Assembly (NCBI GenBank): GCA_030429205.1
Contig: JAUICZ010000002.1
Location: 310,001 to 374,000 of the forward strand
Source of the DNA: Bacteroidia bacterium
GTDB taxonomy: Bacteria; Bacteroidota; Bacteroidia; Chitinophagales; Chitinophagaceae
Reading direction: 5' to 3'
Length of the DNA: 64,000 nt
The notes under the pieces are model-generated. The model saw only the letters and a list, made by a program, of their open reading frames with translations, was not told the origin of the DNA and ran no database searches. Positions 3,231-48,647 of this stretch are shown here, in pieces. The position numbers were made by a program, and so were the translations under genes. Each line of letters starts with the position of its first letter. Within the stretch, counting starts at the first letter, position 1.

Positions 3231-3731
3231 TTATTGTAAATAAGCAGCCGTTATTCTATTGCCTTCTGTTTCCACCTCAATGTGTTCTTGCAATGTTGTT
3301 GCTATACTATGCCCAACAATATCCGGAGTTATTGGGAAAGACTTATGACGCCTGTCTACAAGTACAGCTATCATCACTTTCTTTGGTTCAAAATCAAGTA
3401 TAGGACGCAAGGCATACAAAAGTGTTTTACCTGAGTTTGCAACATCATCTACCAAAACCACAGCCTTATCGTTCAGCTCTTTATTCAGTATAATCTCTTC
3501 TTTTAGCGGCTTTCTTTTATTCAACTTCAAATTGATGTATTCCACTTCCAGCGGACTGATATCAGTCAAACGTTTTGCAAGACTTTTTGCAACAATTGCT
3601 CCACTACCTTCAATACCTATTAAGGTAACGGCTTTTTCCTCACTGTACTCTTCCCATATCTGGAAAGCCATCCTTTGCATTTTCTTATTAATGCGTTCTT
3701 TATCGAGTATGAGTGTCTTTTCTTTGCTCAT
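3231..3731 (-). CDS. PyrR-like phosphoribosyltransferase-family protein
   Basis: I place the start at ATG 3731 (MSKEKTLILD, 166 residues). A longer form from 3758 would run into the upstream permease gene. The PRPP-binding loop VVLVDDVANSGKTL has the two acidic residues and small residues expected of type I phosphoribosyltransferases, and LIGIEGSGAIVAKSLA forms the upstream PPi loop region. Overall it resembles the PyrR branch more than hypoxanthine or adenine enzymes. The family transfers or binds phosphoribosyl groups on pyrimidines or purines, and PyrR proteins can regulate pyr transcripts. No pyr gene is adjacent, so the substrate and any regulatory role are undecided. Confidence 0.75.
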   Translation of the reverse strand: MSKEKTLILDKERINKKMQRMAFQIWEEYSEEKAVTLIGIEGSGAIVAKSLAKRLTDISPLEVEYINLKLNKRKPLKEEIILNKELNDKAVVLVDDVANSGKTLLYALRPILDFEPKKVMIAVLVDRRHKSFPITPDIVGHSIATTLQEHIEVETEGNRITAAYLQ

Positions 3732-3738
3732 TACATGA

Positions 3739-5004
3739 TTAATTAGACCTGATTGCAACTACCGGTTTTAACCTTGAAGCAAAAAATGCCGGAATTATGC
3801 CCGAAAGTACACCTACAATTGTTGAAATCAATATACCTATGAAAAAATTATACAAACTTAGTGTAGTTGGAAAGTCTGCTGTATAAGTAAGAACAAGAGA
3901 TAGCAATACAACAATAGTAATACCAACAAGCCCACCAATAATAGATAACACTACGGCTTCTACTAAGAACTCCAATAGTATACTTATAGCATGTGCACCA
4001 ACTGCCTTCTTTATACCTATTATTTTAGTACGCTCTTTAACACTCACAAACATGATATTTGCCACACCAAAAGCACCTACTAACAGAGAGAAAAATGCTA
4101 TGATTCCTCCTACCATATTTATGCCGTCAAACATCATGTCTAACCGCTCGGTAATTTGCGTTAGCTGATTAATGGCAAAATTGTTTTTCTCTCCGGGGCT
4201 TACCTTCCTTATTCTTCTTAATGCACCTTCTACTTCCAGCTTTACATCTTCTATGTTTTCAGCAGAACCCGTTTTTATGATCAATGAGGGATCTTTATTT
4301 ATTGACCGAACATCTACCATTGAGGCGGCAGCGTAGTACGGATAAATAACACCTCTGTCGAAATTGAACCCGGCCATATTCTGTCCCACCTTTTGCATCA
4401 CTCCTACTATATTAAAAGCTCTGCCTCTAATAGAGATCTTTTTTCCTATAGCATTGTTTCTACTGGGGAATAATGATTCATATACATCATAACCAATCAC
4501 TACCGATTTTGTACCACCATCTATTTCAGACAGGCTTAGGTAACGTCCGTTATCTATCTCTATATTTTGAATTTTATCAAAATTGTGCATTACTGCATAA
4601 GCTGTAATGCCCTCAATTTCCTGATCGCCATGCTTTATAGATTGGCCACCATCACTAAAGCTTAGCGTAGCAAATTCTATATTTTTCACATCTCTCTGTA
4701 CCGCTTTCAGCTCTTTTGTTGTCATGCTGGGTCTTCTCATAAACTCCCACCATTTATATTCCCCTCCTTCATCCATCCATGGCCAACGCCCTATGTATAA
4801 AACATCACTCCCAAGGCTGGAAATTTCTGTACGGATATTATTCTTCATACTATCCAATACCGTAGCTACAGCAATAATGCAGAATATACCTATTGTTATG
4901 CCTAACAAGGATAAAGAAGTTCGCAACTTATTACCTTTCAGCTCTTGTATAGCCTGTACAATGCTGGTATATAGTATTTGACGTAAATGATTCACCGTCA
5001 ACAA
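3739..5004 (-). CDS. ABC transporter permease, MacB/FtsX type
   Basis: The 421-residue protein has the MacB layout: one N-terminal membrane segment (around 28-48, in SLSLLGITIGIFCIIAVATV), a periplasmic domain of about 230 residues, and three C-terminal membrane segments forming the FtsX domain, with VKERTKIIGIKKAVGA before the second. Such permeases pair with a separate ATPase and use mechanotransmission to drive periplasmic export rather than forming a channel. No ATPase gene is adjacent. It is the first gene of a minus-strand run; its stop lies 7 bases before the phosphoribosyltransferase start. Confidence 0.85.
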   Translation of the reverse strand: MLTVNHLRQILYTSIVQAIQELKGNKLRTSLSLLGITIGIFCIIAVATVLDSMKNNIRTEISSLGSDVLYIGRWPWMDEGGEYKWWEFMRRPSMTTKELKAVQRDVKNIEFATLSFSDGGQSIKHGDQEIEGITAYAVMHNFDKIQNIEIDNGRYLSLSEIDGGTKSVVIGYDVYESLFPSRNNAIGKKISIRGRAFNIVGVMQKVGQNMAGFNFDRGVIYPYYAAASMVDVRSINKDPSLIIKTGSAENIEDVKLEVEGALRRIRKVSPGEKNNFAINQLTQITERLDMMFDGINMVGGIIAFFSLLVGAFGVANIMFVSVKERTKIIGIKKAVGAHAISILLEFLVEAVVLSIIGGLVGITIVVLLSLVLTYTADFPTTLSLYNFFIGILISTIVGVLSGIIPAFFASRLKPVVAIRSN

Positions 5005-21740: not shown

Positions 21741-21756
21741 GCGCGCGACCGCGCCT
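21741..21756. repeat. GC-rich palindromic module, right half only (module 1)
   Basis: This copy keeps only GCGCGCGACCGCGCCT of the roughly 28-bp consensus; the left arm is replaced by unrelated bases. It is one of nine modules between 21.7 and 29.8 kb. Confidence 0.6.
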
Positions 21757-21760
21757 GTTC

Positions 21761-21856
21761 CTCCATCCAAAGGCATATGTTCTACAGCCCGGCAGCGCAG
21801 TAGCACAGTAGGCACATCAGGGCGGCAACCGACAATTATGAAGCTTTAATTGTCGG
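21761..21856. repeat. 96-bp interspersed repeat with terminal hairpin (copy 1)
   Basis: The repeat runs from CTCCAT through AGGCATATGTTCTACAG and GGCAGCGCAGTAGCAC to GGGCGGCAACCGAC. It ends in the perfect hairpin CCGACAATTA-TGAAGCTT-TAATTGTCGG (21829-21856). Other copies lie at 23972-24045 (no hairpin) and 25346-25441. Confidence 0.75.
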
Positions 21857-21872
21857 GGTCTTTTCTTTAGTT

Positions 21873-21896
21873 CTTTCTTTGGACAAGCAAAGAAAG
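21873..21896. repeat. CTTT/AAAG hairpin of composite repeat (copy 1)
   Basis: The arms CTTTCTTTG and CAAAGAAAG pair around GACAAG. The equivalent hairpin at 25454-25483 uses different arm bases and a different loop but keeps the pairing. Confidence 0.6.
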
Positions 21897-21922
21897 GACA
21901 GGTAAAAACAATACTCATTACG

Positions 21923-21955
21923 CTAGATCCTGAAATAAATTCAGCATGACCGTGT
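21923..21955. repeat. REP-like palindrome (copy 1)
   Basis: The sequence CTAGATCCTGAA...TTCAGCATGACCGTG belongs to the short palindrome family (core ATGCTGAA, five-base loop, TTCAGCAT) also present at 25514, 28644 and, split, 29489-29568. This copy has one base change in the left arm. Confidence 0.65.
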
Positions 21956-22020
21956 TTTGTGATGTTACGGACTCATCGCAATGAAGAGTGGTTCAGGATG
22001 ACCGTATGGTGTAAATGGTA

Positions 22021-22045
22021 GCGGTTGCGCGCGCGACCGCGCCTG
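22021..22045. repeat. GC-rich palindromic module 2
   Basis: GCGGTTGCGCGCGCGACCGCGCCTG lies within 3 bases of the stop codon of the minus-strand FAD oxidoreductase, where it could act as a 3' hairpin. Confidence 0.7.
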
Positions 22046-22047
22046 TT

Positions 22048-23187
22048 TTAAAACCTTTTCTGCATCAACCTGCGTATGGGCTCTATCTTACCCAAAGCAA
22101 ACACAATATTCAACAACCAGGGCGATTGCCGCAACACTTTTTGTGCCTTAGCATGAAAACTCAATTCGCCCCCCAAAGCCTCCCAAACGGCATCATCATA
22201 AGCAAGCATAAAACCTGCACTAAAATTGTTTTTACCGAAACACTGTATGGCTTGCAACGCCGCCAGCCTGCCGCTGAGCATGGCATTGCCTATCCCCTCG
22301 CCCGTTATCGGGTCTATTAAAGAGGCAGCATCACCCACCAGCATAAATGCCGCTCCCGACATGGTTACCCTGCGCGAGCCTACAGGCAGGCTATGCCCCT
22401 CTATACCTGTAACTGCCGTTGCCTGTTTAAAACGCTCCTGCAACTCGGGTACTGTATTGATAAAGTCCTGAAGGCTTTGTTTCATATTGATGTTTCGTTC
22501 AGCGACATCGCAACTCAACATACCAAACCCTACATTGGCCATACCACCCTCTATAGGAAATATCCAAAAGTACCCCGGGCTAAATTGTTTGTTTACATAC
22601 ATCTCTGTACGGTGCTCATCTACCCCCGATACATTTTTATAGTAAGCCCGCACAGCAGCTATGTGATGTTCTCTGTCCAGCTTGTAACCCGCCAGTTGTT
22701 TGGCTGCAATACTCTGCGCACCATCTGCACCAATCACCAAACGGGCATTATATACATTGCCCTTATCGTCTGCAACGGCATACCCTTCACTGGTTTTAGT
22801 AATCGTCTTGATCCTGGTGTTTTGGATGATGGTTGTATCGGTATGCTCTTCTACCATACCAAACAGCTTATTGTCAAAGTCCATACGCGTGCAGGTATAG
22901 GCTGGTATCTTCCAGTTGAAGTGTAAAGACCTTGTGTTGTAAACTATCTGCGTTCTTTTAGTAAGCAATAGTTTATTGAATGTACTCATCTCGGTAGCCA
23001 GCTCCGGTGCTATCGTTTTTAAAACAGCTATCGCTCTGGATGGTATGGCATCGCCACACACTTTATCACGCGGAAAAATGCTCTTTTCCAGCAGTAACAC
23101 TTTTAGCCCTGCATCCTTCAGTGCCAATGCCGCAGTACAACCCGCAGGCCCTGCACCGGCTATCAATACATCGTAAACCATTTGCAA
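22048..23187 (-). CDS. FAD-dependent oxidoreductase, geranylgeranyl-reductase type
   Basis: The 379-residue protein has an N-terminal dinucleotide-binding motif (DVLIAGAGPAGCTAAL), the PRDKVCGD motif near 40-47, ARLVIGADGAQS and, in the second half, MLVGDAASLIDPITGEGIGNAM, which together define the geranylgeranyl reductase / PHBH-like flavoprotein superfamily. Members reduce isoprenoid chains or hydroxylate aromatics; the substrate here is not predictable. Base composition looks more GC-rich than the neighbouring island genes. It is flanked by GC repeat modules, the first touching its stop codon. Confidence 0.82.
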   Translation of the reverse strand: MQMVYDVLIAGAGPAGCTAALALKDAGLKVLLLEKSIFPRDKVCGDAIPSRAIAVLKTIAPELATEMSTFNKLLLTKRTQIVYNTRSLHFNWKIPAYTCTRMDFDNKLFGMVEEHTDTTIIQNTRIKTITKTSEGYAVADDKGNVYNARLVIGADGAQSIAAKQLAGYKLDREHHIAAVRAYYKNVSGVDEHRTEMYVNKQFSPGYFWIFPIEGGMANVGFGMLSCDVAERNINMKQSLQDFINTVPELQERFKQATAVTGIEGHSLPVGSRRVTMSGAAFMLVGDAASLIDPITGEGIGNAMLSGRLAALQAIQCFGKNNFSAGFMLAYDDAVWEALGGELSFHAKAQKVLRQSPWLLNIVFALGKIEPIRRLMQKRF

Positions 23188-23268
23188 AGGCTAAGCTATA
23201 TAAAAAATGGCCGCTACCTATCTGTAACGACCATTATCATATTTTGAACAACTAAGTGTGTCTGTTAG

Positions 23269-23679
23269 TTAATCTTCTTTCAGCTGTACGCCTCTGCCCT
23301 TTACGGTTACTTTGCGAGAGCTGTAGTTCAATAATATCAACGGAATAGAAAAACGCTTGTATTCTGTTTTAGGCAGTATCAAAGCATCTGCACCTTTACA
23401 GTTATCTACGGCGTTGTAATAAGCATTACTCTCCAGCTCTTGTGTTGTTTTAGATTTTCCGATCGGGAAAAACAACAGGTACAATTGCTTAGATGTTGCA
23501 GTACCGGTTGTGCTGTTGAGCACCTTGTATTCGCTGCGTTTAAGCGGCTCTACACTGCTGTTTAAATACGGGTTGGGCTCGTCGGACAAGGTTTTTGTTA
23601 CAGAAAAACCGCAAGAAGAGCTGAGCAGTAATACTGCTGCTAAAAATGTCAGGGAAATGTTCGTTCCAAAAGTTCGCAT
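23269..23679 (-). CDS. Small lipoprotein of unknown function
   Basis: I start at ATG 23679 (MRTFGTNISL, 136 residues) because the signal peptide begins there; an ATG at 23721 adds 14 residues of no signal character. The lipobox is LSSSC. The mature part contains YLLFFPIGKSKTTQELESNA and a segment AVDNCKGADALILPKTEYKR, a pattern seen in Bacteroidota lipoproteins annotated only as hypothetical. The gene stands alone and its upstream region carries repeats. Confidence 0.65.
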   Translation of the reverse strand: MRTFGTNISLTFLAAVLLLSSSCGFSVTKTLSDEPNPYLNSSVEPLKRSEYKVLNSTTGTATSKQLYLLFFPIGKSKTTQELESNAYYNAVDNCKGADALILPKTEYKRFSIPLILLNYSSRKVTVKGRGVQLKED

Positions 23680-23770
23680 AAGGTAATCTTTTAAATTTGG
23701 CTGCGAAGGTGCGGAAAACATCTAACTGATGCAAACAAAAAAATGTTAATTTGATATACATTCCACAAAA

Positions 23771-23798
23771 GGGCGCGGTTGCGCGCGCTCCCGCTCCT
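23771..23798. repeat. GC-rich palindromic module 3
   Basis: GGGCGCGGTTGCGCGCGC followed by TCCCGCTCCT. The right arm carries TCCC in place of AACC, a variant shared only with module 8 at 29601, so the two are probably copies of one element. Confidence 0.75.
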
Positions 23799-23805
23799 GT
23801 TTTTA

Positions 23806-23916
23806 CGTTCGTCATTACGAGGAGTCCTGTAGCCGCAAGGACGACGTGGTAATCTCGTCATAATACATGTGGTTACAAGATTGCTTCTCCCGATGTCTCG
23901 GGATCGCAATGACGGG
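23806..23916. repeat. 110-bp imperfect palindromic repeat (copy 1)
   Basis: The ends CGTCATTACGA and TCGCAATGACG are near-complements. Inside are AGGACGACGTGGTAATCTCG and TTACAAGATTGCTTC, then a small hairpin TCCCGA-TGTC-TCGGGA. Copy 2 at 29636-29756 is nearly identical up to TTGCTTC and then differs. Confidence 0.75.
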
Positions 23917-23939
23917 AGGCGTATTTACATTTCACAAAA

Positions 23940-23968
23940 GGGCGCGGTCGCGCGCGCAACCGCGCCTG
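23940..23968. repeat. GC-rich palindromic module 4
   Basis: GGGCGCGGTCGCGCGCGC followed by AACCGCGCCT, the apparent consensus form with near-complete dyad symmetry. Confidence 0.75.
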
Positions 23969-23971
23969 TTG

Positions 23972-24045
23972 CTCCATGCAAAGGCATATGTTCTACAGGT
24001 GGCAGCGCAGTAGCACTACAGGCACACCACCAGGGCGGCAACCGA
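23972..24045. repeat. 75-bp interspersed repeat, no terminal hairpin (copy 2)
   Basis: CTCCATGCAAAGGCATATGT through GGCAGCGCAGTAGCACTACA to GGGCGGCAACCGA. It stops exactly where the minus-strand esterase-like reading frame ends (TAG at 24046-24048), so the hairpin found in the other copies is absent. Confidence 0.7.
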
Positions 24046-25254
24046 CTATCTTTTCACAAGGTTAACAGTGGGAGTGGTAGAATTTACAATGAACAAATAG
24101 TTGTAAGACTTTGATAGTGTGAGATGATCAATACCCAACTTATCTGCTTTTTCAATACTGTACGTAGCGCCAAAACTATTAACAACTTGCCTCTTATCTA
24201 CTATGGGGTTGCCCTTATTTTTACCACAGTCAATACCTAAAACACCTTTATTGATACCAGACAATTGATAGCCTAAGCTATGTCGCTGCAGGATGATATC
24301 TATAGTATCCAATCTGTATTGATCATTAGTAAACATCTTTACCATGGCTTTACCTTCTTTCAGCTCAGTGCCTATCACCTTATACTTGTCCCCATACCTT
24401 TCATACAACATTTTGCCTAATGATTCTCTCCCACTGTATCTTTTTGATACGTGGTCATTATGCGCATAAATAAATCCTTTCTCCCCTTTAAAAAAGCTAT
24501 CTATTAACACTGATGCCATATCAAATATCAAGCCCTCTCTATATGCACGCCTTTTACCTCCATGAGAAAAATTGTGCATTATATACGACCTGATGACATT
24601 CGTTTTAGCAATGGAATCTATAAGGTTTTCAGGCTTTTTCATCTGCTCCTTTAACATTTTAGTGTATTGTTCGTGCTTATCCTTCTCGCTGCCTTCTATT
24701 CTTTCCAATTGGCTAAAAAATGCAGTATCAACCCAGCCATTTCCAGTAGCTATACCATTTCTTTCTTCTTCCATCTTCACATACCTGTACACATGAGTGC
24801 CATATCTGTCCATCCCGTAGAACTGCACCTTTCGCTCAAGCGGCATCATAGCATTGTACTCTTTTAGCCAATGCAACAGACCTAGCATACCCTCAGTAAC
24901 AAATGGCCAAGGCACAAAGGCAGCTAACGCTTTTTTACAGTTGCCTGTCCCATTGTTTATATATTCATTCAGTGCAATGCATTGAGGGTAGCTCGCCTCC
25001 AAGATAATATGCCTATAGCTATATTTTGTGACAAGTAGCTTTATGATCTCTATTCTTAATTCTTCAAATTCTGAGGTACCATGCGTAGCCTCTCCAAGCC
25101 CTATTATCTGTGAGCTTTCTGCTATATACTTCAGCTCACCATCATAGTCGAATGATTTTATATCTGCAGATGTAACATATTTCAGGTTCTCTATACCATT
25201 TATTTGTCCATAGCAATTAACACAGATTACCATTAGTATTAGTATCCTAATCAT
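24046..25254 (-). CDS. Erythromycin-esterase-family protein, exported
   Basis: The 402-residue protein has a signal peptide (MIRILILMVICVNCYGQ). The family hallmark GLGEATHGTSEFEELR is present with E55 and H58, the catalytic-type His of EreA-like enzymes. ASYPQC, FYGMDRYG and YAHNDHVSKR are the further conserved blocks. The superfamily includes macrolide esterases and many proteins without tested substrate; export suggests a role other than cytoplasmic drug inactivation. Its stop codon abuts the repeat at 23972-24045, and a composite repeat lies just upstream, so the gene is bracketed by repeats. Confidence 0.82.
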   Translation of the reverse strand: MIRILILMVICVNCYGQINGIENLKYVTSADIKSFDYDGELKYIAESSQIIGLGEATHGTSEFEELRIEIIKLLVTKYSYRHIILEASYPQCIALNEYINNGTGNCKKALAAFVPWPFVTEGMLGLLHWLKEYNAMMPLERKVQFYGMDRYGTHVYRYVKMEEERNGIATGNGWVDTAFFSQLERIEGSEKDKHEQYTKMLKEQMKKPENLIDSIAKTNVIRSYIMHNFSHGGKRRAYREGLIFDMASVLIDSFFKGEKGFIYAHNDHVSKRYSGRESLGKMLYERYGDKYKVIGTELKEGKAMVKMFTNDQYRLDTIDIILQRHSLGYQLSGINKGVLGIDCGKNKGNPIVDKRQVVNSFGATYSIEKADKLGIDHLTLSKSYNYLFIVNSTTPTVNLVKR

Positions 25255-25313
25255 AATTGAATTTATGAAATGATGTAGAAAGCACTGTTTAAGCTTTGAT
25301 TAAAAACACAAAA

Positions 25314-25341
25314 GGGCGCGGTCGCGCGCGCAACCGCGCCT
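25314..25341. repeat. GC-rich palindromic module 5
   Basis: GGGCGCGGTCGCGCGCGC followed by AACCGCGCCT, identical to module 4, preceded by ACACAAAA as in modules 8 and 9. Confidence 0.75.
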
Positions 25342-25345
25342 GTTG

Positions 25346-26164: not shown

Positions 26165-26429
26165 GATCATAGTTTTTGGTTAATGTAAAATTGAAAATAA
26201 AAGCTCTTTTATAACAGAAGAAAATCACTGTTAATGAATTAATACTACAAACAGTATTTAAGTAGTTGAATCCCAAAAATTTATTATTTCACATTCTAAA
26301 TTATTTGTTGTAATATTGTTGTCGTAATTCCTCATGCCTTTAAGCAGGCATCTAAACAATAGCTTATCACGTTGCGCCTGCAATGTTCAACCCACCAGGC
26401 TTTGTTTCATTTTATTAAACCGACGATCA

Positions 26430-26645
26430 ATGTCGCCTGAACAGCAGCCCATACACCCGTTTTGGAAGAGCGAAGCTTTTAAGCAGATACTACTGCGTGT
26501 GCAACAAAGAGCACAGCGCAAACAACAACCCGACATACCCAAAACAACAGAAGAGGTGCTGCAAATGGCCGACGACTATCTCGAACAATTTTTCAAGAAC
26601 AAAAACCATGGAAGACAAAACGAAGAAGACCCTGCAATGGATTGA
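26430..26645 (+). CDS. Small helical protein, first gene of the DUF3987 cassette
   Basis: From ATG 26430 the product is 71 residues, MSPEQQPIHPFWKSEAFKQ..., rich in Gln, Lys and Glu and mostly helical. A longer frame from 26334 has no coding character in its extra part. It overlaps the next gene by 38 bases in a different frame, which suggests translational coupling. I do not recognise it. Similar position, strand and composition make it the probable first gene of a three-gene unit with the DUF3987 gene and the zinc-ribbon gene. Confidence 0.6.
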   Translation: MSPEQQPIHPFWKSEAFKQILLRVQQRAQRKQQPDIPKTTEEVLQMADDYLEQFFKNKNHGRQNEEDPAMD

Positions 26646-28062
26646 CGGCATCATGTACCGGATAGACCCGGAAGGTAACAGAACACCTTACAATTTTGAT
26701 GAAGAACCTAAACCACCACCCAAAGAAACCGAGCCCGAATCTGAAGACAACGGCTACCGCGCCTTCTCTAACAAAGTATATAATACCCTACCCGACCTGT
26801 TGCGCCTGCCCTGCGAACGCTTTAGCGATGGTGCTGAAAAAGAGCTGTTTCTTGTAGGGGCGCTGGGTGTCATCAGTGGTATGATGCCCCACTACACAGG
26901 CAATTACTTTGGCAGCAGCGTAGGCACCAATTTGTATTGCTTTGTTATAGGCAACTATGGCACAGGCAAGGGCGCGCTGAAGTGGGCACACATGCTGGGC
27001 AACGCCACCCACCAAAACAGGCTGAAGGCTGCGGAACAAGATGCAGAACGCTACCGCAGAGAGAAACTGCATTATAACAAGCAGATCAACCTGTTCAACA
27101 AAGGGCAAACCGATGACACACCTAAAGAGCCCACCCCGCCCAGGCATTTAAAACTCTTTATACCTGCTAACACCACGAAAACAGCGGTGATGCAATTGCT
27201 GGAAGAGAACGGCGGCAGGGGCATTATTTTTGAAACAGAGGGCGATACACTGGCAGATATGCTGAAGCAGGATTACGGCAACTTCAGCGATATACTGCGC
27301 AAGGCGTATCATCACGAAGCCATCAGTTTCTTTCGCCGGGCAAACAACGAGGACGTTACCGTGAACGACCCCGCACTATCGGTAGTGCTCAGCGGTACTT
27401 ACGATCAGTTGGTGAAGCTGATACCCAGTATAGAGAACGGACTGTACAGCCGCTTTATGTTTTACATACTGCATGGCAGCAGCGAGTTTCGCGATCCTTT
27501 CGAGCAAAACACATCGGCACATAGTTATCATATAGAACAGTATGCCCAACAGTTGGCTGCCTTATATGAGTTGCTGAACAGTCAACAAACCAACAAACAG
27601 TTTCTGCTCACAGAATCGCAAATGAAAAAGTTTGTAACCCATTTTAAATATGTAAAAGAATGGACACAAGAAACCGTGAGCGAAGAGCTGGACGGTAGTG
27701 TGAACCGTATGGCACTAATGGCGTATCGTATAGCTATGATACTGACCATGCTGCGCGAATATGGCAAAGACAGCGAACTGAAACAGCCCGCATACACTTG
27801 TACCGATGCAGACCTTCAAAACGCGCTGGACATTATAGATGTACTGAGCTACTATGCTACCGATGTGTATGAATACCTGAACAAGAATGGCATTAAAAGA
27901 AACAACGGTACGGTAAAACCACTCAGCGATGACGAACTGAAACTCATCATCAACTACCGTAAAGAAGGGATGAGCCATAAGAAGATAGCCATAGAAGTAT
28001 TGGGAAATGTGAATGCACACCAAAGGGTAAAACGCACTTTGAAGAAGTACGGCATGCAATAG
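26608..28062 (+). CDS. DUF3987-family protein (primase/helicase-associated ATPase-like)
   Basis: I start at ATG 26608 (MEDKTKKTLQWIDG, 484 residues); the frame extends further upstream but that part overlaps the previous gene and looks non-coding. GNYGTGKG (about 115-122) resembles a Walker A loop with Gly instead of Ser/Thr after the Lys. ETEGDTLADMLKQDYGNFSD and PALSVVLSGTYDQLVKL correspond to the Walker-B-like and following blocks of DUF3987, a family common on mobile elements and near primases. A helix-turn-helix-like end (LIINYRKEGMSHKKIAIEVL) suggests DNA contact. Codons look more GC-rich than the neighbours. GC module 6 follows the stop within 10 bases. Confidence 0.72.
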   Translation: MEDKTKKTLQWIDGIMYRIDPEGNRTPYNFDEEPKPPPKETEPESEDNGYRAFSNKVYNTLPDLLRLPCERFSDGAEKELFLVGALGVISGMMPHYTGNYFGSSVGTNLYCFVIGNYGTGKGALKWAHMLGNATHQNRLKAAEQDAERYRREKLHYNKQINLFNKGQTDDTPKEPTPPRHLKLFIPANTTKTAVMQLLEENGGRGIIFETEGDTLADMLKQDYGNFSDILRKAYHHEAISFFRRANNEDVTVNDPALSVVLSGTYDQLVKLIPSIENGLYSRFMFYILHGSSEFRDPFEQNTSAHSYHIEQYAQQLAALYELLNSQQTNKQFLLTESQMKKFVTHFKYVKEWTQETVSEELDGSVNRMALMAYRIAMILTMLREYGKDSELKQPAYTCTDADLQNALDIIDVLSYYATDVYEYLNKNGIKRNNGTVKPLSDDELKLIINYRKEGMSHKKIAIEVLGNVNAHQRVKRTLKKYGMQ

Positions 28063-28067
28063 AAAAA

Positions 28068-28095
28068 GGGTGCGGGTGCGCGCGCACCCGCGCCT
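28068..28095. repeat. GC-rich palindromic module 6 (perfect dyad)
   Basis: The core GCGGGTGCGCGCGCACCCGC (28072-28091) is a perfect 20-base palindrome, with both arms changed relative to the consensus yet still paired. It begins 6 bases after the DUF3987 stop and may serve as a 3' hairpin. Confidence 0.75.
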
Positions 28096-28123
28096 ATTCT
28101 GAAAACTTAAAAACAAAAACACC

Positions 28124-28555
28124 ATGTTATTAAAACCACTACAACAGTTTATATGCGACGGCTGCGGTGCCGTAATACAACAACCGCAACATGCAGAGAT
28201 ACTCTGGACCATGGAGGCTGCCCCCGAAGACTATCCGCACGATTACTGGTATTACAACTATAAGCTGGTACATAAAAGGTATAAGTCGCCATATGGTACT
28301 ATAGGCTGCGGACTGGGCGACCAGCTATGTAATAATGATATAGAGACCTTTCTGGAGTTGTTCTTATTAGATCCTGAGTGTAAAGACATCTCAGAATTTC
28401 AGGAGCTGATGCACCGGCTGACCATCCCCTACTTTGAAGAAGCCAAGCTATATATGGCAGCAGCAATAAAAGACATGGACATGCTGAAAGAACTCTGCGG
28501 CGGCTTTACCAATGCCAAATTCTTTAAAAAGGTAATAGAACTATATGGCGGGTAG
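28124..28555 (+). CDS. Zinc-ribbon-like protein of unknown function, third gene of the DUF3987 cassette
   Basis: The 143-residue product begins with a possible metal site, C11-DG-C14 (FICDGCGAVIQQ), and has further cysteines in IGCGLGDQLC and DPECKD. The rest is acidic and aromatic and ends in a helical region (KFFKKVIELYGG). It starts 61 bases after the DUF3987 stop in the same direction, with GC module 6 between them; GC module 7 follows its own stop by 12 bases. No family recognised. Confidence 0.6.
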   Translation: MLLKPLQQFICDGCGAVIQQPQHAEILWTMEAAPEDYPHDYWYYNYKLVHKRYKSPYGTIGCGLGDQLCNNDIETFLELFLLDPECKDISEFQELMHRLTIPYFEEAKLYMAAAIKDMDMLKELCGGFTNAKFFKKVIELYGG

Positions 28556-28567
28556 TATACTGATACA

Positions 28568-28595
28568 GGTAGCGGGAGCGTGCGCGACCGCGCCT
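28568..28595. repeat. GC-rich palindromic module 7
   Basis: GGTAGCGGGAGCGTGCGCGA followed by CCGCGCCTG, a diverged copy close to the stop of the zinc-ribbon gene and just before the converging gene at 28604. Confidence 0.7.
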
Positions 28596-29568: not shown

Positions 29569-29600
29569 ATGTGGTTGTACGTATTTACAAACACACAAAA

Positions 29601-29628
29601 GGGCGCGGTCGCGCGCGCTCCCGCTCCT
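29601..29628. repeat. GC-rich palindromic module 8
   Basis: GGGCGCGGTCGCGCGCGC followed by TCCCGCTCCT, sharing the TCCC right-arm variant with module 3. Confidence 0.75.
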
Positions 29629-29635
29629 CCCTGCA

Positions 29636-29756
29636 CGTTCGTCATTACGAGGAGTCCTGTAGCGCAAGGACGACGTGGTAATCTCGTCATAATACATGTG
29701 GTTACAAGATTGCTTCATACATAACACTGTAAGCGTTACTCCCTCGCAATGACGGG
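29636..29756. repeat. 120-bp imperfect palindromic repeat (copy 2)
   Basis: Nearly identical to 23806-23916 from CGTTCGTCATT to TTGCTTC. The terminal part has a different insert (ATACATAACACTGTAAGCG...) before the shared CGCAATGACGGG end. Confidence 0.75.
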
Positions 29757-29785
29757 TAGAGTATAAAGCGTACAAATACACAAAA

Positions 29786-29812
29786 GGGCGCGGTCGCGCG
29801 CGCAACCGCTCC
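29786..29812. repeat. GC-rich palindromic module 9
   Basis: GGGCGCGGTCGCGCGCGC followed by AACCGCTCC, the last module before the core genes resume. Confidence 0.7.
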
Positions 29813-29891
29813 TGTTTTGGCTACCCGATAGCACCCTGCCATTTTTACGGCTTTAACCTATCATTATCATGGATAAGCCATAGAAACACCT

Positions 29892-48122: not shown

Positions 48123-48503
48123 TTACTTTCTTGGTGCTTTTTTCTTTCCTGCAACAGTTTTACGCTTACCCTTACGAGTACGGCTGTTGGTACGAGTACG
48201 TTGTCCACGTAGAGGTAAACCTTTACGATGACGAAGACCACGATAACAAGCAATATCCATCAAACGTTTGATGTTCATCTGAACTTCAGAACGTAACTGT
48301 CCTTCTACTTTCATTTCAGAAGTAATGATGGTACGGATGGCAGACAATTCATCGTCATTCCAATCCTGTGCTTTCTTATCCCAATCAATGTTCGCTTTGC
48401 TCAAAATGCTTTGAGCCGTACTACGACCGATACCGTAGATGTAAGTGAGTGCTATCTCACCGCGTTTGTTTTTAGGAAGGTCAATACCAGCTATACGAGC
48501 CAT
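48123..48503 (-). CDS. rpsM: 30S ribosomal protein S13
   Basis: The 126-residue protein starts [20 protein letters not shown] and has the C-terminal basic block [18 protein letters not shown] that contacts the P-site tRNA. It is preceded closely by rpmJ. Confidence 0.99.
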
Positions 48504-48530
48504 GTATGTTTCTAATTTATCTGATTAATA

Positions 48531-48647
48531 TTAACCCTGACGTTGCTTAAAACGAGGATTCTTTTTGTTAATAATATATAGTTTTCCTTTACGACGCACG
48601 ATCTTACAATCGGCACTACGCTTTTTAATAGAAGCTCTAACCTTCAT
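48531..48647 (-). CDS. rpmJ: 50S ribosomal protein L36
   Basis: The 38-residue product reads [19 protein letters not shown], then [19 protein letters not shown]. This is the L36 family but the usual Cys/His zinc ligands are largely lost (one Cys at 14), the zinc-free type. It lies between infA and rpsM, the standard place, 29 bases after infA ends and 27 bases before rpsM starts. Confidence 0.95.

Follow-up and report, generated by a model that had tools for sequence, protein, structure and literature searches.

On balance, we slightly favour the view that the DUF3987 unit described here derives from the replication-initiation module of a small mobile replicon of Bacteroidota, which has been turned into a cargo cassette lacking a recombinase. 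The unit lies in a stretch of 64,000 nucleotides, referred to below as the window. The recurring module can be read from the sequences as a leader, a helicase-type ATPase with a C-terminal helix-turn-helix (HTH), a palindrome, one cargo gene or operon and a second palindrome. Thus, the informative unit is the ATPase with a palindrome, an exchangeable cargo and another palindrome, rather than a trio of genes. A first-pass annotation of this DNA had proposed a conserved three-gene cassette, possibly a defence or replication-linked module brought in by transfer; the replication link, the probable acquisition and the defence-type cargo of relatives are retained here, and the conserved cassette of three genes is abandoned.

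The window unit and its relatives

The three open reading frames first annotated, their overlap, the gap before the third and the GC palindrome within it are all borne out by sequence reading. The features of the unit and its neighbourhood are:

21741-25345, no strand: other GC palindromes of this family, at about 21741, 22027, 23781, 23950 and 25324
26290-26429, plus strand: non-coding conserved leader, with a promoter-like stretch (by eye) and the dyad ATGCCTTTAAGCAGGCAT
26430-26645, plus strand: S71, 71-residue helical protein (ORF read from the sequence)
26608-28062, plus strand: DUF3987 ATPase gene, ATG at 26608, 484 residues, 38-base overlap with S71; C-terminal HTH recognition region GNVNAHQRVKRTLKKYG
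28068-28094, no strand: palindrome P, GGGTGCGGGTGCGCGCGCACCCGCGCC, two tandem and two inverted half-sites, starting 5 bases past the ATPase stop
28124-28555, plus strand: C143, in the cargo slot, 143-residue zinc-ribbon-like CxxC protein, 61 bases after the DUF3987 gene
About 28568-28595, no strand: palindrome P', GC type, a degenerate relative of P beginning about 12 bases past the cargo stop
29588-29817, no strand: the last two GC palindromes

The source genome has three DUF3987 genes, and the genes around them differ. The second copy, L004, lies on this contig about 59 kb farther downstream and comprises the leader, an S71 paralogue (S59, 53% identity), DUF3987 and a 558-residue pentapeptide/membrane ORF, and at L005 an XRE gene precedes DUF3987 and a 374-residue ORF of no known family follows it. 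Since L004 and L005 carry other genes behind DUF3987, the third gene is variable. S71-type genes are paired with DUF3987 only twice, both times in this genome, and among 293 other genomes sampled 3 have relatives of C143, weak and unlinked; with the third gene and even the first varying between copies, the three-gene reading was ruled out. An unrelated RecA-type ATPase, AAA_25, is also present in this genome in three copies, all with this layout and each with a different cargo. The window leader recurs in the genome (blocks 82-88% identical) at two places, ahead of the DUF3987 gene of L004 and ahead of the AAA_25 gene of L156, whose product likewise ends in an HTH.

S71 is a real gene under purifying selection, because comparison with its same-genome paralogue gave pN 0.30 against pS 0.74 (pN/pS 0.41, and 0.25 over the first 34 codons); the refutation proposed with the first-pass annotation thus has a divided outcome, since the three genes are not kept together in other genomes but the small ORF is under selection. 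No convincing S71 homologue was found outside the source genome in 394 genomes. Neither S71 nor C143 had any match in Pfam or PADLOC, no PADLOC anti-phage profile was matched by either of them or by the DUF3987 protein, and the structure model of C143 reached a pLDDT of 42, too low for a structure search. At L132 two ORFs resembling REP-associated transposases (RAYT; 1087-1725 and 3673-3930) adjoin a weak C143 relative, a SUKH protein.

In related genomes, most DUF3987 genes lie behind an HTH_17 gene, with a VirE_N domain fused or adjacent, and an integrase is present in several of these loci. The earlier remark that no integrase is nearby thus holds for the window unit, but not for relatives of its ATPase. 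Solitary DUF3987 proteins, the window copy included, form one clade (support 100/99), six of whose seven members have neither VirE_N nor an integrase nearby; the seventh, from G170, carries VirE_N together with a Dam/DpnII-like pair. DUF3987 was not found in the sister genome, which is complete by estimate.

Palindromes bracketing the cargo

Each ATPase stop is followed by an element-specific palindrome, whose half-sites are about seven bases long and stand in tandem and inverted order. A related palindrome stands at the cargo stop in 18 of the 19 elements tested, with scores above those of all 300 shuffles; these comprise 16 AAA_25 cassettes, of which 15 pass, and L004, L005 and the window unit, which all pass. 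At L214 no P' passed the 300-shuffle control. Exact matches of at least 14 nt were found in 11/15 AAA_25 loci, 3/7 solitary DUF3987 loci, 1/15 canonical loci and 7/255 control genes. In the window unit P and P' aligned with a local score of 19, where 300 shuffles gave at most 15, and their longest exact match was 9 nt, so that the exact-match test was negative and the alignment score alone was positive; the likeness of the two palindromes is loose. At the AAA_25 loci no exact repeat of P was found upstream of the ATPase, indicating that the bracket spans the cargo and not the entire unit.

In most AAA_25 cassettes P' is closer to the reverse complement of P than to P itself, as might be expected of an invertible segment; this possibility was discarded because cargo and ATPase share a strand in every AAA_25 cassette examined. 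At the DUF3987 locus L009 the palindrome is present three times around two cargo genes, which point the opposite way.

The cargo is a single gene or a short operon, about half being of no recognised family. The recognised ones include Fic, nucleoside-deoxyribosyltransferase/TIR-like, pentapeptide-TIR, SIR2, DUF2971 (PDC-S31), OLD-like ATPase, TIR/bSEFIR (bSEFIR with 321 bits) and AIPR/AbiU proteins; the cargo proteins of L216 (AAA_25) and L009 are membrane proteins that look related by eye. Several relatives' cargo match PADLOC anti-phage profiles, unlike the window proteins. By these matches the cargo in relatives is often of known defence type, and for the window copy we infer a defence role. 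The occurrence of different, often anti-phage genes in one slot points to a little-known, recombinase-free way of carrying and exchanging defence genes. No description of the palindrome-bracketed layout was found in the open-access literature on DUF3987.

The ATPase, its HTH and its half-sites

The window protein matches Pfam PF13148 with 193.9 bits (gathering cut-off 27). The P-loop-like GNYGTGKG, with Gly after Lys, is present as first described, and since G-K-G is invariant among 11 aligned homologues it is a family trait and no oddity. The helix-turn-helix-like end was likewise recovered, as three helices modelled at residues 440-479. An AF2 model (pLDDT 83) aligned with MCM helicases over residues 58-422 with a Z score of 18.4 (rmsd 3.5, 270 residues aligned), and the best 50 matches listed in the structure search were all MCM. 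Therefore the protein is predicted to fold like an MCM AAA+ helicase, with which it would share the AAA+ fold. An NGLYSRF motif was found in aligned DUF3987 homologues and resembles the SRF arginine finger of MCM. Sequence searches of PDB gave no match at E<=1 for the DUF3987 core by profile, and HTH proteins only for the AAA_25 ATPase. DUF3987 had already been predicted to be a mobile-element helicase (PMC5862659), and the MCM-like model agrees with this.

The palindrome varies with the HTH. The more alike two AAA_25 proteins are in their last 22 residues, the more alike are their palindromes (Mantel r 0.41-0.54, p=0.0001), whereas similarity of the core shows no correlation. The pattern had first been noticed by eye and was tested statistically afterwards; with independent loci from a viral collection added, r was 0.56 (p=0.0002). 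When AAA_25 and DUF3987 were pooled the correlation was weaker yet significant (r 0.18, p=0.016; partial 0.22, p=0.001), and for DUF3987 by itself (n=7) it did not reach significance (p=0.29). Moreover, KST in the HTH accompanies CCC half-sites in both ATPase families, a pairing that also fits L139, which was found later. Paralogues in the same genome mostly have different half-sites, and in three of four near-identical same-genome pairs the HTH, the palindrome and the cargo have been swapped together. In those three pairs (G221, G669 and G615) the cores are 95-100% identical, the last 45 residues only 40-51%, and the palindrome and cargo differ; homology ends 105-154 bases before the ATPase stop, so that HTH, palindrome and cargo differ jointly. 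The G593 pair departs from this by degree, with an HTH region 89% identical although the half-sites differ. Thus, the C-terminal HTH of the helicase probably recognises the palindrome, binding being suggested by this covariation.

Origin of the module and alternative explanations

Four apparently circular contigs of 6.1-7.8 kb, with terminal direct repeats of 96-127 nt as in circular molecules, carry an AAA_25 ATPase and, directly behind its gene, a cluster of half-sites (iterons); in three of them a DUF6371 primase comes next and an integrase is present. Small contigs filed as viral in IMG/VR (L228-L236), four of them apparently circular, have the look of plasmids or of excised integrative elements that encode an AAA_25 helicase. 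In the primase-type AAA_25 loci an integrase was found in five of five, and the primase lies directly behind the half-site cluster. In a homology search with one integrase query, no tyrosine integrase was found in any of the 16 AAA_25 cassettes or in the window unit, L004, L005, L009 and L052. In seven cassettes a primase occurs 1.7 to 3.7 kb downstream, beyond the cargo. One convergent intergenic site in two species is occupied by a DUF3987/VirE_N/DpnII-like element (L054, in G170) and, in the opposite orientation, by an AAA_25/AIPR cassette (L222, in G264). Neither an empty site with clean ends nor a target duplication came to light, the flanks within the genus being too rearranged for exact ends. 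A tRNA insertion site was also considered and discarded, as a tRNA-Met adjoins the L004 island only and most cassettes are not near a tRNA.

The layout and its recurrence, the covariation of HTH and site, the swaps, the iterons behind AAA_25 in circular contigs and the MCM-like fold are directly supported by the data. According to the mechanism we propose, the HTH of the MCM-like DUF3987 helicase would bind the half-sites behind its own gene, a palindrome that may represent an iteron-type origin site. With a second copy behind it, the cargo would stand between two sites that share a specificity. The HTH, its site and the cargo would be exchanged together between modules, probably via recombination in the conserved ATPase core or the leader, and the helicase might amplify, mobilise or switch on the bracketed segment. 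Several observations weigh against this reading: the loose likeness of the window palindromes, a window cargo that matches no recognised defence gene, the lack of significance for DUF3987 by itself, the G593 pair, the failure of L214, the absence of an exact repeat of P upstream of the AAA_25 ATPases, the want of a clean empty site, and palindromes at genes with no ATPase nearby. We also suggest, tentatively, that such elements may constitute a distinct class of recombinase-free defence cassettes, in which a helicase with an exchangeable HTH would recognise a private palindrome bracketing one defence gene; the HTH-site-cargo unit would be shuffled between helicases of unrelated folds, MCM-like DUF3987 and RecA-like AAA_25, under a common leader, perhaps with infection-triggered, origin-driven amplification or transfer. 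Should the cassette reading be right, it would explain the carriage and exchange of single defence genes by these bacteria without integrase or transposase, and would tie the uncharacterised DUF3987 family to MCM-type helicases. It would also provide a directly checkable sequence rule, HTH against half-site, and a signature for unknown defence genes as whatever sits between matched palindromes behind such an ATPase.

The main rival holds that the ATPase regulates the cargo directly, as a sensor and transcription factor in one, with palindromes as operators or terminators and no present mobility or replication. We consider it rather unlikely. The position of P between ATPase and cargo, the common strand of both in the AAA_25 cassettes, the resemblance of several palindromes to bidirectional terminators and the mostly different half-sites of paralogues in a genome, as would be expected of orthogonal operators, all agree with a switch; however, a switch accounts poorly for the presence of P' past the cargo and for iterons of the same site type lying, in circular contigs, between the helicase and primase genes, and the cargo genes of L009 point the other way.

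It is clearly improbable that the cassettes are decayed integrative elements, helicase genes left after the loss of integrase and primase with cargo and palindromes as hitch-hiking debris at a hypervariable site. An integrase is missing in all cassettes and a primase in many, two copies are frameshifted (L009 and L048, the latter in a gapped draft), and different elements do share a hypervariable intergenic site; yet ATPase and S71 are intact under purifying selection, the layout is regular in nearly all elements tested, and HTH and site change together. The last of these points, in that the palindrome correlates with the HTH and not with the core, also speaks against REP-like palindromes or shared terminators spread passively and placed behind ATPase and cargo by ordinary terminator use, which we regard as highly improbable. 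Palindromes of two types (GC and GGTACA) do follow genes without a nearby ATPase on contig C8 (36-41 kb; 71.7 and 75.3 kb), but the sequences are element-specific, the L156 type occurring on C8 at its own cargo only. The 21-nt palindrome of L004 is found exactly at two ATPase-free intergenic places, C8 71735 and 75286 (L161 11735 and 15286).

Among known systems, the origin favoured here brings the cassettes close to the iteron-type replication modules found in integrative elements of Bacteroidota (integrase, HTH_17, a helicase of the AAA_25 or DUF3987 family, iterons, and a primase of DUF6371 or VirE_N type), with which they share the ATPase families, the half-site cluster directly behind the helicase gene and the circular form seen; they differ in having no integrase, in the cargo between helicase and any primase and in the second site behind it. 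Integron gene cassettes (attC, IntI) are likewise exchangeable single genes, each closely trailed by a palindromic site, but in our cassettes there is no integrase, the site of each element tracks the HTH of the neighbouring ATPase, and the ATPase gene has a site too. REP sequences, which are partnered by RAYT transposases (Y1), are also intergenic palindromes spreading locally; no Y1 transposase was seen in the modules, whose partner is a helicase-type ATPase. The pdif modules, genes between XerC/D sites (PMC7399989), are similarly recombinase-free gene modules between short sites, whereas the cassette half-sites vary with the ATPase HTH and, by inspection, form no single conserved Xer site. 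DUF3987 is among the primase profiles of the search model for PICMI phage satellites (PMC10803314); unlike these, the window unit has no integrase, AlpA or Fis gene that we could see.

With the whole 399-kb contig read, its GC palindromes were confined to two clusters, of 5 and 9 copies. For this reason those of the window are not random background, and a genome-wide REP reading of the GC palindrome was ruled out on this one contig. The clusters lie at 36.4-40.9 kb of C8 and at 21.7-29.8 kb of the window, and their neighbours are a sugar epimerase and miaB, which are separated by about 6 kb in G001, the sister genome, and by 300 kb here; because of this, the clusters may mark rearrangement breakpoints. 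Sequence shared with the sister species resumes at 29836, adjoining miaB. Two GC palindromes surround an erythromycin-esterase-like gene (24046-25254), inside near-identical flanking direct repeats. A short dispersed repeat with TTCAGCATGAC occurs at 21933, 25524, 28654 and 29550 of the window, with further copies elsewhere on the contig, and an Rfam Alpha_RBS match lies at 48471-48579.
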